NCBI GenBank assembly: GCA_946410085.1
Contig: CAMJZA010000009.1
Location: forward strand, 1-64,000
Reading direction: 5' to 3'
DNA from: an uncultured Treponema sp.
GTDB taxonomy: Bacteria > Spirochaetota > Spirochaetia > Treponematales > Treponemataceae
DNA: 64,000 nt
Shown here: positions 29,852 through 42,441 of the stretch, piece after piece
How positions within the stretch are numbered: position 1 is the stretch's first letter
Layout: each line of letters starts with the position of its first letter
Notes under the pieces: generated by a model
Database searches by the model: none
What the model was told of the DNA's origin: nothing
What the model saw: the letters and a program-made list of their open reading frames with translations, nothing else
Made by a program: the position numbers and the translations under genes

Positions 29852-32800
29852 CTAGGCTACCTGCGTGGTTGTTTTGAAAGCTTCCATTACGGCCTCTTCG
29901 TGACTGAATCCCTTTTCTTCATTCCGGGCCGTTTCTGCCAGCATCCGCTTGTAATCATTCGGAATGATTTTCTTGAAGTCTGCAAGTGCACGGTCAAAGT
30001 CGCCGAGCAGGGACTGTGCCAGCGGGGACCCGGTCTTTTCAGCGTGCCGCCGGATCAGGTCTTTCAGGAGATCCTTATCGTGCTGACTTACGATTTCTTC
30101 CATGCTGACCAGCTGCTTGTTCAGCTTTTTGTACAGCTCATGCCGGCTGTCCAGTACGAACGCAATGCCTCCGCTCATACCGGCGGCAAGGTTCCGTCCC
30201 GTCGGTCCGAGGATGACGACGGTACCGCCCGTCATGTATTCAAGCCCGTGGTCTCCGCAGCCTTCGACGACCGCGGCGGCACCCGAGTTGCGGACGGCAA
30301 AGCGTTCTCCCGCAATGCCGTTTATGTAGGCTTCACCGCTTGTCGCACCGAAGAGGGCGACATTGCCGATGATGATGTTTTTGTCTGCCGCCCGTGTGGA
30401 ATTCCTGCCGGGCCTGACAATCAGCTTGCCGCCTGAAAGCCCCTTGCCGAAGTAGTCGTTTGCATCGCCTTCAAGTTCGATGGTCAGTCCCTTGGGTATG
30501 AATGCACCGAATGACTGGCCTCCGCCGCCTTCGGCATGGACGGTATAGCTGTCGTCTGCTATGCTTCCGCCGAAGCTTTTCTGAATCTCGCTTCCCAGAA
30601 TGGTGCCGAAGGACCGGTCGGTACTCTGGACTCTGATGGTCCCGAACTGCGCCTGCTTCCATTTCTTGAGGAGGACCTTTTCATCGAGGGTCTTGTGCAG
30701 GCCAAAGTCATAGACATCCTGAGGATCAAAGTGGCTCTTGACCGCATCAGCGTCTGCAGCTTTTGCAAGGATCCGCGACAGGTCCAGCAGGTCGGCATGG
30801 CCTCCGGCAGGATGCTGTTTTATGCCCAGCAGCTCTGTCCGTCCGACCAGTCCGTCAACCGTGCGGACGCCCAGCTTTGCCATGTACTCCCGCATTTCCT
30901 GCGCGATGAACTTCATGAAGTTTTCGACGTATTCGCTCTTTCCCTTAAAGCGCTTCCTGAGTTCGCTGTTCTGCGTTGCAACGCCGAAGGGGCAGGTGTC
31001 TTTCTGGCAGACCCGCATCATTGCGCATCCCATCGAAATGAGCGGGGCAGTTGCAAAGCCGAATTCCTCCGCGCCGAGCAGGGCTGCTATGATGACGTCA
31101 CGTCCGCTCATCAGCTTTCCGTCCGTCTCTATGCGGACCCGGCTCCTGAGGCCGTTCTGCACGAGCGTCTGCTGGGTCTCCGAAAGTCCCAGCTCCCAGG
31201 GCAGGCCCGCATGATGGATGCTGGAAATCGGTGCGGCGCCGGTTCCTCCGTCATGGCCGGAAATAAGGATGACCTGTGCTCCGGCCTTTGCGACGCCTGC
31301 TGCAATCGTGCCGACGCCCGCCTCACTGACCAGCTTGACGCTGATCCGTGCTGCACGGTTTGCATTTTTCAGGTCATAGATGAGCTGTGCCAGGTCTTCG
31401 ATTGAATAGATGTCGTGGTGGGGCGGCGGTGAAATCAGTGCGACGCCCGGCGTTGCATAGCGGGTTTTTGCAATCCAGGGATAGACTTTCTTACCGGGCA
31501 GGTGGCCGCCTTCTCCGGGTTTTGCTCCCTGTGCCATCTTGATCTGGATTTCCTTCGCGCTCAAAAGGTATGCTTCCGTTACGCCGAAGCGGCCTGATGC
31601 GACCTGCTTGATTGCCGAGTTGTATTCCGTTCCGAGCCGGTCCGGGTTCTCTCCGCCTTCTCCGCTGTTGCTCTTTCCCTTCAGGTGGTTCATCGCCTTT
31701 GCCATGCACTTGTGGGCTTCCTCGCTGATTGAACCGTAGCTCATCGCTCCCGTCTTGAAGCGCTGTACGATGCTTTCGACGGGTTCGACTTCTTCGAGCG
31801 GAATGCCGCCGTCTGAGGCATATTTGAACTCAAAGAGGCTCCGCAGGGTGTGGGGCCTCTTTTCGTCATCGACGAGGGCGGTATACTCCTTGAAGCGCGC
31901 GTAGTCCCCGTTCCGCGTTGCCTGCTGCAGGGCGATGATGGTTTCCGGCGAATAGAGGTGGTCTTCGCAGGTTGGTCCCCGCCTGAGCTTGTGGTTTCCG
32001 ACCGAATCCAGATGGGTGTTGACGGCAAGACCGAGGGGGTCAAATGCCTTGTTGTGGTGGAAGTTCACGTCCTCTTCAATTTCCTTGAGCGTAATGCCTC
32101 CCACCCGGCTGACCGTATTCGTGAAGTAGCGGTCTATGACTTCCGTACTGATGCCGACTGCTTCGAATATCTGGGCGGACTGGTAGGACTGGATGCAGCT
32201 GATGCCCATCTTTGCCGCGATTTTTACGATGCCGTTCAGGAGCGCCTTGTTGTAGTCGTCGATGGCGGTGTGGTAATCCTTGTCCAGCAGCTTCTGATCG
32301 ATGAGCTCGGCGATGCACTCGTGGGCCAGGTAGGGATTGACCGCCCGTGCCCCGTAGCCGAGGACCATCGCTGCCTGATGGACATCGCGGATTTCCGCAC
32401 TCTCAAGGATAATGGAAATCTTTGTCCGCTTTTTGGTCCGTATGAGGTACTGCTCAACGGCAGAAACCGCCAGCAGCGACGGGATGGCGACATGGCTTTC
32501 ATCAACGCCCCGGTCGGAAAGTACCATGATGTTGCTGCCTGCATGATACTGCCGTTCAAGCTCGTTGAAGAGGCTGTCGATTGCCGCTTCAAGCGATGTA
32601 TTCTTGTAGTAGAGGATCGGGAGCGTTGCGGCCCGGTAGCCCGGCTTGTCGAGCGCCTTTATTTTCATCATGTCGACGCCGGTCAGGATGGGGTTGTTTA
32701 TTTCCAGAACCGTGCAGTTTGTGCTGTTCGGTTCCAGGATGTTTCCGTCCGTTCCCACGTAGACGGTCGTATCGGTGACGATTTTTTCGCGCAGGCTGTC

Positions 32801-34360
32801 GATCGGCGGGTTGGTTACCTGGGCGAACAGCTGCTTGAAGTAGCTGAACAGGGGCGGGTGTTTTTCGGACAGGACGGCGAGCGGGGTGTCGACGCCCATC
32901 GAGGCCGTCGGTTCAACACCGTTCTGCGCCATCGGCAGGATCATCTCGTTCACGTCCTCGTAATTCCATCCGAATGCCCGGTACATGATGTCCCGTTCCT
33001 CCTGCGAGTAGACGGGGATTTTCCTGTTCGGAATCGTCAGCTCGTGCAGCTGGAGGAGGTTCTTGTCGAGCCATTCGCCGTAGGGGAACTGGCGGGCAAA
33101 CTGCTGCTTGCACTCTTCATCGGAGATGAGCCGCTTCTGTACGGTATCCACGAGCAGGATCCGGCCCGGCATGAGGCGGGATTTCTGCAGGATCTTTTCT
33201 TCGGGGATGTCAAGGACGCCGACTTCGCTGGAAAGGATGAGCGTATTGTCGCTCGTGATGTAGTAGCGGCTCGGACGCAGGCCGTTCCGGTCGAGTGTTG
33301 CACCCAGCAGGTCGCCGTCGCTGAAGAGGATTGCGGCCGGTCCGTCCCAGCTTTCCATCATGGTTGCCCAGTAATGGTAGAAATCCTTCTTGTCCCGGTC
33401 CATTGCGTCATCATGCTTCCAGGGTTCGGGAATACACATCATTACGGCAAGCGGAAGCGGCGTTCCGTTCATCATCAGGAACTCCAGCGTATTGTCGAGC
33501 ATTGCGGAGTCCGAGCCGCTCGTGTCGACGGCGGGCAGGACCTTCTTCATGTCATCGTCGGACAGGAGGGGCGAGCTGAGCGTTTCTTCCCGGGCCAGCA
33601 TCCGGTCCACGTTGCCCCGGATCGTGTTGATTTCGCCGTTGTGGGCAATGAGCCTGTTGGGGTGCGCCCGCTGCCAGCTCGGCTGGGTGTTCGTGGAAAA
33701 GCGGGAGTGCACGATGGCGAGGGCGGAACTGAATTCCTCGGACTGGAGGTCTTCGTAGAAGGTCCGCAGCTGTCCGACGAGGAACATGCCCTTGTAGACG
33801 ATCGTTCTGCTTGAAAGCGAGACAACGTAGGTTCCCAGCTGGGTTTTTTCGAACTGCCGGCGCAGGACGTAGAGGCGGCGGTCAAAGGCAAGGCCCTTTT
33901 CAACGCCGTCCGGCCGCTCGATGAAGCAGTTCATGATGACCGGCATGCATTCCCGGGCCCTGCACCCCAGAACGTCTTCCCTGACGGGAACCTGCCGCCA
34001 TCCCAAAAAGCGCAGGCCTTCTTTTGTGCTCAGGGATTCGATCATCCGCATTGCCTGTGCGCGGAGCAGCTTGTCGGCAGGGAAAAAGAACATGCCTACG
34101 CCGTAATCGCGTTCTCCTCCCAGCTGTATGCCGCAGTCTGCGGCAGCCTTCAGGAAGAAGGGATGGCAGATCTGCAGCAGAATGCCGACCCCGTCTCCTG
34201 TTTCGCCGCTTGCGTCCTTTCCTGCCCGGTGTTCCAGTTTTTCGACGATGCACAGGGCATTGTCAACGATGGAATGGCTCTTCGTGCCGTCAATGCTGAC
34301 GACTGCGCCGATTCCGCATGAGTCATGTTCAAAAGACTGTTCGTATAAGGTATGTGCCAT
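29852..34360 (-). CDS. gltB: Glutamate synthase large subunit GltB
   Basis: 1502 aa from the ATG at 34360 (GAGGAG upstream). The class II glutaminase domain starts at EHDSCGIGAV, whose Cys becomes the N-terminal nucleophile after propeptide removal. The synthase barrel includes GAKPGEGGHLPGKKV, and the 3Fe-4S ligands lie in MGCAMMRVCQKDTCPFGVAT. The GXGXG beta-helix domain (GNVALFGATSGEAYINGIAG) is C-terminal. It channels ammonia from glutamine to 2-oxoglutarate. Sits between asnB and gltD in one operon, 30 nt after asnB. Confidence 0.97.
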   Translation of the reverse strand: MAHTLYEQSFEHDSCGIGAVVSIDGTKSHSIVDNALCIVEKLEHRAGKDASGETGDGVGILLQICHPFFLKAAADCGIQLGGERDYGVGMFFFPADKLLRAQAMRMIESLSTKEGLRFLGWRQVPVREDVLGCRARECMPVIMNCFIERPDGVEKGLAFDRRLYVLRRQFEKTQLGTYVVSLSSRTIVYKGMFLVGQLRTFYEDLQSEEFSSALAIVHSRFSTNTQPSWQRAHPNRLIAHNGEINTIRGNVDRMLAREETLSSPLLSDDDMKKVLPAVDTSGSDSAMLDNTLEFLMMNGTPLPLAVMMCIPEPWKHDDAMDRDKKDFYHYWATMMESWDGPAAILFSDGDLLGATLDRNGLRPSRYYITSDNTLILSSEVGVLDIPEEKILQKSRLMPGRILLVDTVQKRLISDEECKQQFARQFPYGEWLDKNLLQLHELTIPNRKIPVYSQEERDIMYRAFGWNYEDVNEMILPMAQNGVEPTASMGVDTPLAVLSEKHPPLFSYFKQLFAQVTNPPIDSLREKIVTDTTVYVGTDGNILEPNSTNCTVLEINNPILTGVDMMKIKALDKPGYRAATLPILYYKNTSLEAAIDSLFNELERQYHAGSNIMVLSDRGVDESHVAIPSLLAVSAVEQYLIRTKKRTKISIILESAEIRDVHQAAMVLGYGARAVNPYLAHECIAELIDQKLLDKDYHTAIDDYNKALLNGIVKIAAKMGISCIQSYQSAQIFEAVGISTEVIDRYFTNTVSRVGGITLKEIEEDVNFHHNKAFDPLGLAVNTHLDSVGNHKLRRGPTCEDHLYSPETIIALQQATRNGDYARFKEYTALVDDEKRPHTLRSLFEFKYASDGGIPLEEVEPVESIVQRFKTGAMSYGSISEEAHKCMAKAMNHLKGKSNSGEGGENPDRLGTEYNSAIKQVASGRFGVTEAYLLSAKEIQIKMAQGAKPGEGGHLPGKKVYPWIAKTRYATPGVALISPPPHHDIYSIEDLAQLIYDLKNANRAARISVKLVSEAGVGTIAAGVAKAGAQVILISGHDGGTGAAPISSIHHAGLPWELGLSETQQTLVQNGLRSRVRIETDGKLMSGRDVIIAALLGAEEFGFATAPLISMGCAMMRVCQKDTCPFGVATQNSELRKRFKGKSEYVENFMKFIAQEMREYMAKLGVRTVDGLVGRTELLGIKQHPAGGHADLLDLSRILAKAADADAVKSHFDPQDVYDFGLHKTLDEKVLLKKWKQAQFGTIRVQSTDRSFGTILGSEIQKSFGGSIADDSYTVHAEGGGGQSFGAFIPKGLTIELEGDANDYFGKGLSGGKLIVRPGRNSTRAADKNIIIGNVALFGATSGEAYINGIAGERFAVRNSGAAAVVEGCGDHGLEYMTGGTVVILGPTGRNLAAGMSGGIAFVLDSRHELYKKLNKQLVSMEEIVSQHDKDLLKDLIRRHAEKTGSPLAQSLLGDFDRALADFKKIIPNDYKRMLAETARNEEKGFSHEEAVMEAFKTTTQVA

Positions 34361-34390
34361 GCCGTACTCCTCGCTCAAATGCATTCTGTC

Positions 34391-36025
34391 TTATTTTCCG
34401 CTGTCGCCGTAGTTGCTCAGGACCCGGGCGCTCGGGTCGTTGACGTCGCAGCCCTTCCAGCTCTTGTTCGGCATCCAGAAGTCAACGATCATCTGACTCT
34501 GGCCCGGATAGAATTTCTCAAAGATTTCCCGGTACAGGAGGGATTCTTTCGTAAAAGGACGTGCATGCGCGTACTGACGGCACTTTTCTGCAAATTCTGC
34601 GTCGGTATACGTTGCTTCTGCGTATTCCTTGAGGTCGTCGACCAGGGAGTGACCGACTGCATCACTGAAGGCTGCCTTTTCCCGCATCAAAAGGTCATGG
34701 GGCAGGTAGGGCTTCCCGTCATCGTCAGCTTCAAAGGCGTGGCGCAGGAGGTATTTGCCCTTGCCGTAGCGGTTCAGCTTGAGTTCCGGGTCAATCGACA
34801 TGACGTAGCTGACGAAGTCAAGGTCTCCGAAGGGGACGCGGGCTTCCAGGCTGTTCACGCTGATGCAGCGGTCTGCCCGCAGTACGTCGTACATGTGCAG
34901 TTCCCTGACCCGCTTGACGGCTTCCTGCTGGAAGGCTTCTGCTGACGGTGCGAAATCCGTGTACTTGTAGCCGAACAGCTCATCGCTGATTTCTCCGGTC
35001 AGCAGGACGCGGATGTCGGTCTGTTCATGAATTGCCTTGCACAGGAGGTACATGCCCATGCTGGCGCGGATTGTCGTGATGTCAAAGCTGCCCAGTGCGT
35101 AAATGACGTCTTCGAGGGCGGAAAGGACATCCTCGCGGGTTATGATGATTTCATGGTGGTGAGAGCCGATGAAGTCCGCTACCTGCCTTGCATATTTCAG
35201 GTCAATCGCGTCGGTTTTCATGCCGATGGCAAACGTTTCGATGGGCTTGTGCAGGATGCGGCTGGAAACGGCGCAGACGAGCGAGGAGTCAAGGCCGCCG
35301 CTCAAAAGGAAGCCGAGCGGTGCGTCTGCATCCAGCCGTTTCTGAATGCCTGCAATGAGCCTGTCGCGGATCTGGCGGCAGATGCCGTCCGCTCCGTCGA
35401 GTGCCCCCGCCTGCGTTTCGCTTACCGCTGTTATATCCCGGTAGCAGGTGAAGCTGCCGTCCTTGTAGTAGTGTCCGGGCGGGAAGGGGAGAATTTCTCT
35501 GACCAGACCCTCCAGATTCTTCGGCTCGCTGGCAAAGGCGATGCCTCCTTCCGTATCGTAGCCGTAATAGAGGGGGCGGATGCCGATGGGATCGCGGGCT
35601 GCGACGACGGATTTTGCTGCTTCATCGTAGATGATCAGCGCGTATTCGGCGTCGAGCATCCTGAAGACATCGCAGCCGTATTTTTCGTAGAGGGGCAGGA
35701 GGATTTCACAGTCGGAATCCCCGGCAAAGCGGTAGCCGTCTCCGCAAAGCTGTTCTTTCACCTTTCTCCAGGGAACGGACGTGTTTCCACCCTCAAGGAC
35801 GCCGTATATTTCACCGTTGCAGACCAGACTCCTTTTGTTTCCGGTAAAGGGCTGCATGCCGCTTTCGGCAAGTCCCATGATGGCAAGGCGCTGAAAGCCG
35901 AGAATCGCTCCCTCCTGTTCCAGTATCCGGGAACTGTCAGGTCCGCGGGATGTGGTCCGGTTAAAATTCGTGCGGAAGTCCTTCATTGAAATTACATTGC
36001 CAAAATAACCCATTACGCAGCACAT
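34391..36025 (-). CDS. asnB: Asparagine synthase (glutamine-hydrolysing)
   Basis: 544 aa from the ATG at 36025, chosen because it places Cys at position 2 (MCCVMGYFGN), the glutaminase nucleophile; the track start adds 24 residues read from the leader. Glutaminase: RGPDSSRI, FQRLAIMGL, VCNGEIYG. Synthetase: ATP pyrophosphatase loop FLLSGGLDSSLVCAV and GEISDELFGYKY. It makes asparagine from aspartate with ATP. Heads the nitrogen operon asnB-gltB-gltD. Preceded by an unusual hairpin leader, which probably regulates it. Confidence 0.94.
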   Translation of the reverse strand: MCCVMGYFGNVISMKDFRTNFNRTTSRGPDSSRILEQEGAILGFQRLAIMGLAESGMQPFTGNKRSLVCNGEIYGVLEGGNTSVPWRKVKEQLCGDGYRFAGDSDCEILLPLYEKYGCDVFRMLDAEYALIIYDEAAKSVVAARDPIGIRPLYYGYDTEGGIAFASEPKNLEGLVREILPFPPGHYYKDGSFTCYRDITAVSETQAGALDGADGICRQIRDRLIAGIQKRLDADAPLGFLLSGGLDSSLVCAVSSRILHKPIETFAIGMKTDAIDLKYARQVADFIGSHHHEIIITREDVLSALEDVIYALGSFDITTIRASMGMYLLCKAIHEQTDIRVLLTGEISDELFGYKYTDFAPSAEAFQQEAVKRVRELHMYDVLRADRCISVNSLEARVPFGDLDFVSYVMSIDPELKLNRYGKGKYLLRHAFEADDDGKPYLPHDLLMREKAAFSDAVGHSLVDDLKEYAEATYTDAEFAEKCRQYAHARPFTKESLLYREIFEKFYPGQSQMIVDFWMPNKSWKGCDVNDPSARVLSNYGDSGK

Positions 36026-36070: not shown

Positions 36071-36152
36071 TAAAAACAAAAAAGACGCCGTAGACACTAT
36101 CCCTTTCCGGGCCTGTTTACCCGAAAAGAACTGTATCTACGACGTCTTTGCC
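36071..36152 (-). promoter_or_regulatory. Hairpin leader (attenuator-like) of asnB-gltBD
   Basis: On the minus strand AAAGACGTCGTAGA (plus 36136-36149) pairs along all 14 positions (one G-U) with TCTACGGCGTCTTT (36081-36094), which runs into TTTGTTTTT. Inside the loop CTTTTCGGG pairs with CCCGGAAAG (9 bp, one G-U) around an 8-nt loop. The whole is a two-stem intrinsic-terminator-like RNA placed immediately after the predicted transcription start. It ends ~55 nt before the asnB ATG. It could also end transcription of the upstream fliL-like gene. Confidence 0.7.
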
Positions 36153-36162
36153 GTATGTCCTA

Positions 36163-36191
36163 GTAGTACTACTTCACGGAAAAAAAGTCAA
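36163..36191 (-). promoter_or_regulatory. Candidate promoter of asnB-gltB-gltD
   Basis: Minus strand TTGACT (plus 36186-36191), 17 nt, TACTAC (36163-36168); the -10 is weak. The predicted start lies ~8 nt upstream of the leader hairpin, making that hairpin the 5' end of the asnB transcript. Confidence 0.55.
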
Positions 36192-36218: not shown

Positions 36219-36803
36219 TTACTCAAAGAACATGTAGTCATCAAAGTAGACGCTCGTAATCTGGCCCATGACCAGCTGCTCATTAATTTTTGCCCGTATG
36301 CCTTCCTTTATCTTCTGTTCACCCATCTCCATCAGTTCGGCCTTTGTATATGACGAGAAGTAGCCGATGATGATGGATTTTTCCTGCTTTTCTTTCTGGG
36401 CCAGCTCTTCATAGAGCTGAATGTCGCTGGCAGGATAGGAGAACCAGGGGGCAACGACGAGCAGGGTACCGCTCTGACCGTCCTGGCCTTTCGTTACGGT
36501 CCGTATCTGGCCGAGATCAGTATAGGCGCTGACGCTCTGCTTTGATTTGAGGCTGGAGTTTACCACCTGCTTCGGACTTGGGTCGACCTTCCGGTATTTG
36601 ACGGAAAGCTCCCCGCCGTTCCTGGCAAGGGCGACTGCCGTGCCCCCGATAAAAATCGTGAACATCACGATGAGGATGATGATGAGCAGCTTATTGAGAA
36701 GCTGCAGGGAAGCATCATCTTCCTTTGCCCGGCCGTAGCGCCGGTCGTCCTGTTCCCGTGCGTAGTATTTTCCGTTGTCATGCCTGAATTTGATTCGTCC
36801 CAT
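36219..36803 (-). CDS. FliL-like single-pass membrane protein
   Basis: 194 aa. A charged, Arg-rich cytoplasmic N-terminus (GRIKFRHDNGKYYAREQDDR) precedes one TM helix (LLIIILIVMFTIFIGGTAVA). The periplasmic domain (LGQIRTVTKGQDGQSGTLLV to EQLVMGQITSVYFDDYMFFE) has the secondary-structure pattern and the terminal 'V-F-D---' of FliL. True FliL tunes flagellar torque; this copy is outside a flagellar operon, so it is called only FliL-like. It lies 2 nt downstream of hflX. Confidence 0.65.
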   Translation of the reverse strand: MGRIKFRHDNGKYYAREQDDRRYGRAKEDDASLQLLNKLLIIILIVMFTIFIGGTAVALARNGGELSVKYRKVDPSPKQVVNSSLKSKQSVSAYTDLGQIRTVTKGQDGQSGTLLVVAPWFSYPASDIQLYEELAQKEKQEKSIIIGYFSSYTKAELMEMGEQKIKEGIRAKINEQLVMGQITSVYFDDYMFFE

Positions 36804-39334: not shown

Positions 39335-39365
39335 CGCGGGGAATTGCGTATTCCCCGCGTTTTTA
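39335..39365 (+). terminator. Intrinsic terminator after tpiA
   Basis: CGCGGGGAAT (39335-39344), loop TGCGT, ATTCCCCGCG (39350-39359), followed by TTTTT. A perfect 10-bp stem with T-run. Confidence 0.92.
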
Positions 39366-39388
39366 TTTCGAAAAATGCTGTTACTTTG

Positions 39389-39417
39389 TTGACGGCAACT
39401 GAAAGAAAGTTTATACT
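39389..39417 (+). promoter_or_regulatory. Promoter of ppdK
   Basis: TTGACG (39389-39394), 17 nt, TATACT (39412-39417), then ~20 nt of leader and GGAGG before the ATG at 39446. Near-consensus, consistent with a highly expressed central enzyme. Confidence 0.88.
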
Positions 39418-39445
39418 ATCGCTACATATATATATGGAGGACATA

Positions 39446-42352
39446 ATGGCTAAGACCAAGTATGTTTACTTTTTTGGTGATGGCGACGCAGAAGGCGATG
39501 AGACGATGCGCCCCTTGCTCGGAGGAAAAGGTGCCAACCTTGCGCAGATGGCAAAGAAGCCTTTGAGCCTGCCGGTTCCATCAGGATTCACAATTTCCAT
39601 TGACGTTTGTCAGGAGTATTACAAGCTCGGCAAGAAATATCCTGCCGGACTTGACGCTGAGGTTGCGAAATATCTCGGAAAGCTTGAGAAGTCAATGGGC
39701 AAGAAACTGGGTGACGAGAAGGATCCCCTTCTTGTTTCCGTTCGTTCTGGAGCCGCGGAGTCAATGCCCGGCATGATGGATACCATCCTTAATCTTGGTC
39801 TTAATGACAAATCAGTCCTTGGCCTTGCCAACAAGACGAACAATCCCCGTTTCGCGTGGGATGCATACCGCCGTTTCATCCAGATGTTCGGCAACGTCGC
39901 AATGGGCGTTGAGCACGACAAATTTGAGGAAATCATTTCAGAAGTGAAGGCCAAGGCCCACGTAAAGGAAGACACCGAGCTTTCCACCGAGGACCTTCAG
40001 GAGATTGTCTCCAAGTATAAGGCCATGTACAAGAGGGAGAAGGGCGAGGATTTCCCGCAGGATCCCCAGAAGCAGATGTGGGCAGCTATCGGAGCGGTCT
40101 TCGGTTCCTGGATGAACCCCCGCGCGATTACCTACCGCAAGCTCAACAACATCGACGAGCGCGTCATAAAGGGAACCGCCGTTACCGTCATGGCGATGGT
40201 CTTCGGAAACATGGGTGACACCTCCGGAACCGGAGTTGCGTTCAGCCGCGATCCTTCGACCGGAGAGAATCACTTCATGGCAGAGTACCTCATCAACGCA
40301 CAGGGTGAGGACGTTGTTGCCGGTATCCGCACGCCGATGGACATTTCTGCCCTTGAGCAGCAGCAGCCCAAGATTTTTGCCGAGATCACGAAGATCCGCA
40401 ACCGCCTTGAGAAGCACTATCATGACATGCAGGACATGGAGTTCACCGTTCAGGAAGGCAAGCTCTATATGCTCCAGTGCCGCAACGGAAAGCGCACGGG
40501 TCCTGCCGCCGTCAAGATGGCCGTCGATATGGTCGGTGAGAAGCTCATCACCAAGAAAGAGGCCCTGATGCGCGTCAAGCCTGATCAGCTGGATCAGCTC
40601 CTGCACCCGCAGTTTGATGCAAAGGCCCTCAAGGCTGCATCTCCGCTGGCATCCGCACTCAACGCTTCTCCGGGAGCAGGCTGCGGACAGATTGTCTTCA
40701 CCGCTGAGGAAGCAGTCGAGTGGGACAAGGCCGGTAAGAAGGTCATCCTCGTCCGCAAGGAGACTTCTCCTGATGATATCGCCGGAATGTACGTCGCACA
40801 GGGTATCCTCACCTCAACGGGTGGACGCACCTCTCACGCCGCTGTCGTTGCGCGCGGAATGGGAACCCCCTGTGTCTGCGGATGTTCCGAGGTTGTGTTC
40901 ACCGGAAAAGATGAAATTACGATCGGCGGCAGGAAGTTTGTCAAGGGAGATATCATTTCCATCGACGGTTCGACGGGAAATGTGTACGGCGAGGCCATCC
41001 CCGTTACGCCTGCTTCTGTCTCAGGAGACCTTGAGACCTTCCTCGGCTGGGCTGATGAAGTCCGTGCCTCTTCCAAGCGCGTCACTGCTTCAGGAAATAA
41101 GGTCAACGGCTTTGAGGTTCTTGCCAACGCTGAGCAGAACGAGGCCGCTCAGGCATTCCGCTTTGGTGCTGCCGGAATCGGTCTGTGCCGCACTGAGCAC
41201 ATGTTCTTTGAGGAGCCCAAGCTCTCTTCCTTCCAGAAGATGATTCTTTCCGAGACGACCGAGGACCGCAAGAAGAACCTCAAGGAAATCCTCCCGCTCC
41301 AGCAGAAGGATTTCTTCGGCATCATCAAGGCCATGGAGGGACGTCCCGTCACCATCCGTCTGCTTGATCCGCCGCTCAACGAGTTCATCCAGGCTGCAAC
41401 TCCCGCTGAGGCTCAGGCTCTCGCGAGCAAGCTCGGCTACAGCGTTGAAAAGATCAACAAGAAGTACGTGGAGCTCAACGAGCACAACCCGATGCTCGGA
41501 CACCGCGGCTGCCGCCTTGCGATTACCTATCCCGAGATCTACGAGATGCAGGTCGAGGCGATTGCCCTCGCTACGGCAGATGCCGACAGCAAGGGAATTG
41601 CCCACGATGTGCGCATCATGATCCCGAACGTGACCACCTTCGCCGAGCTCAAGCAGATCCGCGCTCAGGCTGAGGCCGTGATCGCTGCCGTCAACGAGCG
41701 GAAGGGAACCAAGCTCAAGTTCCAGATCGGATCCATGATCGAGTTCCCCCGTGCCGCTGCCACTGCGAATCAGATTGCGGAGTATGCGGACTTCTTCTCA
41801 TTCGGTACGAACGACCTTACCCAGACGACGCTCGGCTTCAGCCGCGACGACTACGGCAAGTTCATCGACTCTTACCTGGATCAGAAGGTCCTGGACAACG
41901 ATCCCTTCAAGACGCTCGACGCTGACGGCGTTGGCGCGATGATTGAGATTGCCGAGGAGAAGGGACGTTCCGTCAAGTCTGACCTGCATCTTGGCATCTG
42001 TGGAGAGCACGGTGGAGATCCTGCTTCCATAGAGCTGTGCTACAAGCTCGGACTGAACTACGTTTCCTGCTCACCCTTCCGCGTTCCCGCTGCACGCCTT
42101 GCCGGTGCTCAGGCTGTCATCAAGGCTGAGAAGGCCGGTAAGGAGGAAAAAGCTCCTGCAAAGCGCGGCCGCAAGGTTGCAGAGAAGACTTCTACCCGTG
42201 GACGCAAGGCTGCAGAGAAGACTTCTTCTCGTGGTGCTGCAAAGAAGACCGTAAAGGACTCAAAGCGTGGCGCAACGAAGACTGCCAAGAAGACTGCCGC
42301 CAAGAAGACTGCAAAGACTTCTGCGCGGGGTCGCAAGCCGAAGGCAAAATAA
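39446..42352 (+). CDS. ppdK: Pyruvate phosphate dikinase with histone-H1-like C-terminal tail
   Basis: 968 aa from the ATG at 39446 (GGAGG upstream); typical PPDK is ~875 aa. ATP-grasp N-terminus (LLGGKGANLAQM, VSVRSGAAESMPGMMDTILN), swivelling domain with the phospho-His in GGRTSHAAVVARGMGTPC (His464), and the PEP/pyruvate barrel (LCRTEHMFFE, NPMLGHRGCRL, FSFGTNDLTQTTLGFSRDD). The last ~75 residues are Lys/Ala/Thr-rich repeats: PAKRGRKVAEK, TRGRKAAEK, AKKTAAKKTAK, ARGRKPKAK. These look like an H1-type or AT-hook tail and are foreign to PPDK. It converts PEP, AMP and PPi to pyruvate, ATP and Pi, or the reverse. Codon use stays like the neighbours. Confidence 0.95.
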   Translation: MAKTKYVYFFGDGDAEGDETMRPLLGGKGANLAQMAKKPLSLPVPSGFTISIDVCQEYYKLGKKYPAGLDAEVAKYLGKLEKSMGKKLGDEKDPLLVSVRSGAAESMPGMMDTILNLGLNDKSVLGLANKTNNPRFAWDAYRRFIQMFGNVAMGVEHDKFEEIISEVKAKAHVKEDTELSTEDLQEIVSKYKAMYKREKGEDFPQDPQKQMWAAIGAVFGSWMNPRAITYRKLNNIDERVIKGTAVTVMAMVFGNMGDTSGTGVAFSRDPSTGENHFMAEYLINAQGEDVVAGIRTPMDISALEQQQPKIFAEITKIRNRLEKHYHDMQDMEFTVQEGKLYMLQCRNGKRTGPAAVKMAVDMVGEKLITKKEALMRVKPDQLDQLLHPQFDAKALKAASPLASALNASPGAGCGQIVFTAEEAVEWDKAGKKVILVRKETSPDDIAGMYVAQGILTSTGGRTSHAAVVARGMGTPCVCGCSEVVFTGKDEITIGGRKFVKGDIISIDGSTGNVYGEAIPVTPASVSGDLETFLGWADEVRASSKRVTASGNKVNGFEVLANAEQNEAAQAFRFGAAGIGLCRTEHMFFEEPKLSSFQKMILSETTEDRKKNLKEILPLQQKDFFGIIKAMEGRPVTIRLLDPPLNEFIQAATPAEAQALASKLGYSVEKINKKYVELNEHNPMLGHRGCRLAITYPEIYEMQVEAIALATADADSKGIAHDVRIMIPNVTTFAELKQIRAQAEAVIAAVNERKGTKLKFQIGSMIEFPRAAATANQIAEYADFFSFGTNDLTQTTLGFSRDDYGKFIDSYLDQKVLDNDPFKTLDADGVGAMIEIAEEKGRSVKSDLHLGICGEHGGDPASIELCYKLGLNYVSCSPFRVPAARLAGAQAVIKAEKAGKEEKAPAKRGRKVAEKTSTRGRKAAEKTSSRGAAKKTVKDSKRGATKTAKKTAAKKTAKTSARGRKPKAK

Positions 42353-42399: not shown

Positions 42400-42441
42400 A
42401 AAAAAAAAGCCGGGAGCGTAAGCGCTTCCGGCTTTTTTTTT
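42400..42441. terminator. Bidirectional terminator between ppdK and dnaE
   Basis: AAAAAAAAGCCGGGAGCG pairs with CGCTTCCGGCTTTTTTTT around TAAG, with A-run and T-run on both sides, so it can serve both converging genes. A second small hairpin ACAGGCGGTA-TG-TACCGTCTGT sits at 42371-42392. Confidence 0.92.

Follow-up and report, generated by a model that had tools for sequence, protein, structure and literature searches.

The window analyzed here is a 64,000-nt stretch of DNA from an uncultured Treponema species. On its minus strand, asnB (asparagine synthase; Asn_synthase, 1.6e-67) is followed 6 nt downstream by gltB, which codes for the 1510-residue large subunit of glutamate synthase, and the two genes presumably form one operon led by asnB (Table 1). 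An hflX-fliL-like gene pair lies upstream and is outside the switch described below; its last gene stops 28 nt before the -35 element of the leader promoter. The FliL-like protein (PF03748, 31 bits) was found alone, directly after hflX, and no flagellar genes were seen nearby. The closest named relatives are Treponema records; apart from these, this kind of asnB is found in Lachnospiraceae and other Clostridia. The window gene was most similar to clostridial asnB (67–72%), and high-identity orthologues were detected in few of 59 same-genus genomes. It is possible that asnB was transferred horizontally along with its leader.

Table 1. Features of the asnB leader, its locus and the related loci of the regulon. 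Positions refer to the window unless preceded by an L number.
Feature	Position	Strand	Details
-35 element	36186..36191	-	TTGACT; read directly from the sequence; TTGAC recurs at the same distance in leaders of the genus
-10 element	36163..36168	-	TACTAC; 17-nt spacer from -35; weak, 3/6
Antiterminator hairpin	36138..36155	-	6-bp stem UACGGC/GUCGUA; hexaloop AAAGAC at 36149-36144; A1 = 36149, G4 = 36146
Intrinsic terminator	36072..36149	-	Outer stem 36149-36133 with 36097-36081 (17 bp); inner stem 36130-36119 with 36112-36101 (12 bp)
Terminator T tract	36083-36072	-	TTTTTTGTTTTT
asnB, asparagine synthase	34391..36025	-	ATG at 36025; first gene of the controlled operon
gltB, glutamate synthase large subunit	29852..34384	-	3' of asnB
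FliL-like gene	36219..36803	-	Last of the upstream hflX-fliL-like pair
glnA	L121: 8364-9557	minus	
ANTAR gene	L121: 7770-8336	minus	27 nt after glnA
GSIII leader	L121:9620-9800		Two tandem hexaloop-terminator units
amtB-PII leader	L124:4138-4310		Two tandem hexaloop-terminator units
Leaders at purF, pyrG, urea-type transporter binding protein, PucR regulator, dapF, acyl-ACP thioesterase	L179, L182, L192, L188 (minus), L236, L142		

Transcription from the sigma-70 promoter of the leader would be expected to start near position 36156 on the minus strand. A TTGAC-type promoter was also the best promoter before most matches of R1, a covariance model built from the leader, and the -10 register reads TAGAAC and TATAAG in two relatives, G054 and G033, respectively. 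An earlier, sequence-only reading of this DNA had placed the start upstream of the hairpin, and the promoter is indeed conserved 5' of the hairpin in relatives. A 12-bp palindrome over the -10 element (AGTAGTACTACT) was considered as an operator and dropped because it is absent from both G054 and G033.

The same reading had described a promoter-proximal two-stem terminator with a T-run before asnB. This structure is present, with an outer stem of 17 bp that exceeds the 14 bp originally claimed, and the stem ends 55 nt upstream of the asnB ATG, exactly as had been stated. The minimum free energy of the leader is -47.8 kcal/mol compared with -26.8 ± 3.5 kcal/mol for shuffled sequences (z = -5.95), and none of 200 shuffles was as stable. 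The 5' arm of the terminator starts at A1 of a short hexaloop hairpin and corresponds to the hexaloop and 3' arm of that hairpin. Because these segments are shared, the hexaloop hairpin and the terminator are mutually exclusive. Minimum-free-energy folding of nascent-transcript prefixes gave the hexaloop hairpin alone at lengths of 20–64 nt; at about 68 nt and beyond, the terminator formed instead.

A single hexaloop of the ANTAR type

ANTAR antitermination proteins with targets of this kind include EutV, AmiR and NasR. The published signature of such targets is a terminator-overlapping hexaloop whose first base is A (A1) and whose fourth is G (G4) (PMC3369931, PMC8934654). The asnB leader has A1 and G4 in its loop (AAAGAC), a stem of 6 bp where at least 3 bp are called for, a conserved closing pair, and a hairpin that overlaps and excludes an intrinsic terminator; one cognate ANTAR protein (59.1 bits) is encoded in the genome. 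What sets it apart from the class is that each terminator is accompanied by only one A1/G4 hexaloop in place of a P1 and P2 pair joined by a short linker. EutV needs both P1 and P2, at a spacing of 5–12 nt: induction is lost or strongly weakened when either loop is mutated, and likewise with a linker of 3 nt or 14 nt or with a 20-nt extension (PMC3369931, PMC8934654). Published catalogues of ANTAR targets also demanded dual stem-loops, with a linker of 2–25 nt (PMC8164766).

The leader could still be a classical dual-hexaloop attenuator if its second site were degenerate, lay in the inner hairpin or came from another copy of the RNA. The inner hairpin of the window does come 7 nt later and its hexaloop, AAACAG, starts with A, and two units are found in the leaders of GSIII (glutamine synthetase III) and amtB-PII (an ammonium transporter fused to PII), though these units lie about 66–69 nt apart and each has its own terminator. 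However, AAACAG lacks G4 and is not conserved, and the inner hairpin was rejected as a conserved P2. Across 38 leaders extracted from the genus, the apical loops inside the terminators range from 3 to 12 nt, and a second AxxG hexaloop within the terminator was absent from 34 of them even when a stem of 3 bp was accepted. An upstream partner is no easier to accommodate. Among the 25 model matches with a located hairpin, the best promoter places the start -1 to +7 nt from the hexaloop stem in 22, and because the stem begins at about the expected start, no room is left for a second hexaloop before it. Several clostridial asnB leaders with near-consensus promoters similarly have the hexaloop at +1 to +10 and no partner inside the transcript. 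We consider the dual-hexaloop arrangement unlikely on these grounds and infer that one hexaloop suffices here; given the single loop, either the published rule differs in these leaders or a second contact exists that has not been seen. The asnB leader thus falls outside the strict dual-hexaloop definition, would work like the ANTAR target family, and is filed here as a variant of it.

Conservation of the leader with asnB

The leader is kept in relatives, and it tracks asnB, not the upstream gene. In G033, which belongs to the same genus and has an asnB about 70% identical to that of the window, the promoter, hexaloop and terminator all precede asnB, whereas the upstream gene differs and has a separate terminator of its own upstream of the leader. 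In G054 (asnB 80–85%) the leader again stands before asnB, and the upstream stretch was read without a fliL-like gene. With different genes upstream, the leader of these closest relatives still accompanies asnB, so it is not simply there to end transcription of the fliL-like gene. The contrary view, in which the hairpin does no more than terminate the hflX-fliL-like operon constitutively and asnB is transcribed from a promoter of its own further downstream, draws on the short distance from the fliL-like stop to the -35 element, on the absence of any other visible terminator between that gene and asnB, and on the fact that strong terminators between operons are common. A plain terminator, however, would not be expected to retain a competing second hairpin with a fixed loop, nor would the combination of promoter, hexaloop and terminator recur ahead of many other nitrogen genes as it does. 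This view is very improbable. The leader terminator may nevertheless also stop read-through arriving from the hflX-fliL-like pair.

Both helices of the leader covary. In the leader alignment the terminator helix is 93.6% paired, with 11 of 17 pairs changed on both sides (0/500 shuffles), and the antiterminator helix is 89.5% paired, with a score of 0.196 versus 0.094 (0/500 shuffles); these pairing percentages lean upward because the alignment was gathered partly by motif. The closing C-G pair is present in 27/27 aligned hexaloop hairpins, and the 5' arm of the terminator starts within the hexaloop or immediately after it, at A1 in most leaders. When the loop was left free in a search of the genus (promoter, CGGC-N6-GTCG and a T run), approximately 27 distinct places were found, nearly all of them with A1 and G4. 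There were two clear exceptions, one in an ANTAR-less genome and one resembling coding sequence, and both look like chance; a reversed-pattern control gave a single match. A further set of 84 asnB loci, mostly clostridial, was picked by protein similarity alone. Upstream of these genes, 15 C-G-closed A1/G4 hexaloops with a stem of at least 5 bp were counted compared with 0.56 in shuffles (maximum 3 in 200). The bare pattern CGGCANNGNNGTCG matched the genome 60 times versus 24 in the control, which makes it too loose to be used alone, most matches not being leaders.

Several observations were made alongside these searches. At locus L003, asnB follows the apparent end of gltD, and a model match (G045:C49:70072-70147) lies 1.6 kb upstream, at about the expected start of the operon. 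Ruminococcus-type asnB genes (L081, L086, L087, L090 and L109) have a 4–8 bp stem with the hexaloop AATGGC or AAAGGC 48–58 nt before asnB; the hexaloops lie near the ribosome-binding site with no T run, and are perhaps ANTAR sites acting on translation. In the window itself, a weak model match on the plus strand (42403-42441, 21.7 bits, E 0.019), located where a long ORF (39344-42352) ends, is probably an ordinary terminator.

The regulon and its ANTAR protein

With the R1 model, three leader loci and no others came up in the genome, namely those of asnB-gltB, GSIII and amtB-PII. The GSIII leader is divergent from a glnA-ANTAR gene pair. The 38 genus leaders precede asnB-type genes (10), gltB (9), GSIII (8) and amtB (3), with further targets comprising gltD, purF, pyrG, a urea-transporter-like binding protein, a PucR-type regulator, dapF and an acyl-ACP thioesterase, which suggests a broad glutamine/nitrogen regulon. 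Model matches were present in 46 of 51 ANTAR-bearing genomes of the genus, the other five having none. When only genomes at least 90% complete were considered, matches were found in 22/25 ANTAR-positive genomes (mean 4.3) versus 2/6 ANTAR-negative ones (mean 0.33; p = 0.0015), with one match in each of these two ANTAR-negative genomes. Two genomes with no detected ANTAR gene yet six matches each are 65% and 72% complete. As a check of specificity, a sample of 198 genomes from the class outside the genus yielded one match. Co-occurrence is uninformative among the clostridia because ANTAR proteins are nearly universal there (21/22 genomes).

The association with ANTAR genes also bears on whether a small molecule such as glutamine might control the terminator directly, as a riboswitch. 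A terminator in the leader of a nitrogen gene would suit such a switch, and the regulon includes several glutamine-using enzymes. On the other hand, leader number follows the presence of the ANTAR gene, and what is conserved amounts to a single 18-nt hairpin with few fixed loop bases, which is too small for a usual aptamer and is the ANTAR signature. The sequence-only reading could name no riboswitch class for the leader, and none emerged from Rfam: no family matched at its gathering score when the whole window was searched at that threshold and the leader at E values up to 5, and the only hits were at chance level (for example trpB, which scored 18.4 bits where the gathering score is 59). Direct control by a riboswitch is accordingly highly improbable. 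Operons for amino acids, and asnB, are often regulated by leader peptides or T-box/tRNA, but such attenuation has almost no likelihood here, given that the hairpin stands at the start of the transcript, where no leader ORF precedes it or would fit before it, and that Rfam returned no T-box match.

The single ANTAR protein of the genome has 188 residues and scores well above the domain cut-off of 27.3 bits. Its gene is linked to a glutamine synthetase gene, as in a NitR-type regulon. The best solved relatives are AmiR (1qo0_D, 8e-9, the closest), Rv1626, NasR and EutV. Pfam matched only the ANTAR domain of the protein and left its receiver-like part unmatched; we propose that it consists of a pseudo-receiver and an ANTAR domain. 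In EutV, Lys149, Glu160, Tyr164 and Met172 contact or position the hexaloop (PMC8934654). The residues that align with them, K147, E158, H162 and M170, are invariant in 26 relatives, the first three matching the G4 contacts. In the receiver-like part Asp56 is invariant, whereas the Lys before Pro103 is variable, which makes canonical phosphorylation doubtful judging from the sequence. The sequence-only reading had offered an antiterminator protein or a nitrogen-state ligand as examples of what might make read-through past the leader conditional. The first of these options is supported by the overlap of an ANTAR hexaloop with the terminator, by the lone ANTAR protein encoded beside glnA, and by the similar leaders at GSIII and amtB-PII.

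Proposed mechanism and relation to known systems

Judged from its sequence and that of its relatives, the asnB leader is very probably an ANTAR-protein-dependent transcription attenuator. In the mechanism we propose, the transcript would start near 36156 and its first ~18 nt would fold into the 6-bp hairpin with the hexaloop AAAGAC. With nitrogen plentiful, nothing would hold this hairpin; the 3' arm of the terminator would invade, the 17-bp terminator would form, and RNA polymerase would halt at the T tract, short of asnB. Under nitrogen shortage, an ANTAR dimer would bind the hexaloop and keep the hairpin closed, so that the terminator is blocked and asnB-gltB is transcribed. The dimer would have to hold the hairpin over about 45 nt, from its completion to the arrival of the terminator 3' arm, and the leaders of GSIII and amtB-PII would be targets of the same ANTAR protein. 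A response to nitrogen limitation is assumed here by analogy with the one proposed for NitR of Clostridium saccharobutylicum (PMC6316151).

We further think it likely that these leaders define a class of ANTAR attenuators in which one hexaloop at the 5' end is enough for antitermination, and that this class serves a genus-wide nitrogen/glutamine regulon in Treponema, recurs in gut Clostridia, and was overlooked because earlier searches required two hairpins. ANTAR control in Treponema was not described in any paper of the literature searched, which took in only a minority of subscription journals. For nitrogen control in these spirochaetes, the results supply a candidate regulator together with RNA sites and target operons, and they connect the spirochaetes with gut clostridia. 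By the published rule, ANTAR dimers must contact two hexaloops one after the other; leaders with a single hexaloop offer a natural way of testing that rule, and they suggest that an entire design is absent from the ANTAR target catalogues compiled so far.

The eut leaders of Enterococcus faecalis, controlled by EutV, share with the asnB leader the A1/G4 hexaloop, the conserved closing pair and the overlap with a terminator (PMC3369931, PMC8934654), but they have an essential P1 and P2 with a 5–12 nt linker whereas here there is one 5'-end hexaloop per terminator. The loop-contact residues of EutV are conserved in the Treponema protein except that His replaces Tyr164, as in AmiR, and the receiver-like part differs in being unmatched by Pfam and in its non-conserved Lys. 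AmiR, which acts at amiE in Pseudomonas and is the nearest relative of solved structure, shares the His at the position that stacks on G4. However, AmiR/amiE and NasR/nasF of Klebsiella are single-locus systems with dual hairpins, in contrast to the multi-operon regulon with single hairpins described here. ANTAR RNAs have been predicted at the glutamate synthase genes of Desulfotomaculum reducens and across actinobacteria (PMC3369931, PMC8164766). These are also ANTAR-type hairpins in nitrogen-gene leaders, but the searches that found them required two stem-loops (linker 2–25 nt, PMC8164766) and would miss single-hexaloop leaders. A functional parallel is offered by NitR, an ANTAR regulator of nitrogen-assimilation genes that is proposed to act as an antiterminator inducing GS/GOGAT genes under nitrogen limitation (PMC6316151, citing Stutz 2007). 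The likeness lies in the regulator and in the kind of genes it controls; the present system differs in belonging to a spirochaete and in covering many operons (asnB, gltB, gltD, GSIII, amtB-PII, purF and pyrG). The kind of attenuator is therefore known from other ANTAR systems, while its form here, with one hexaloop at +1, and its regulon in a spirochaete set this one apart.
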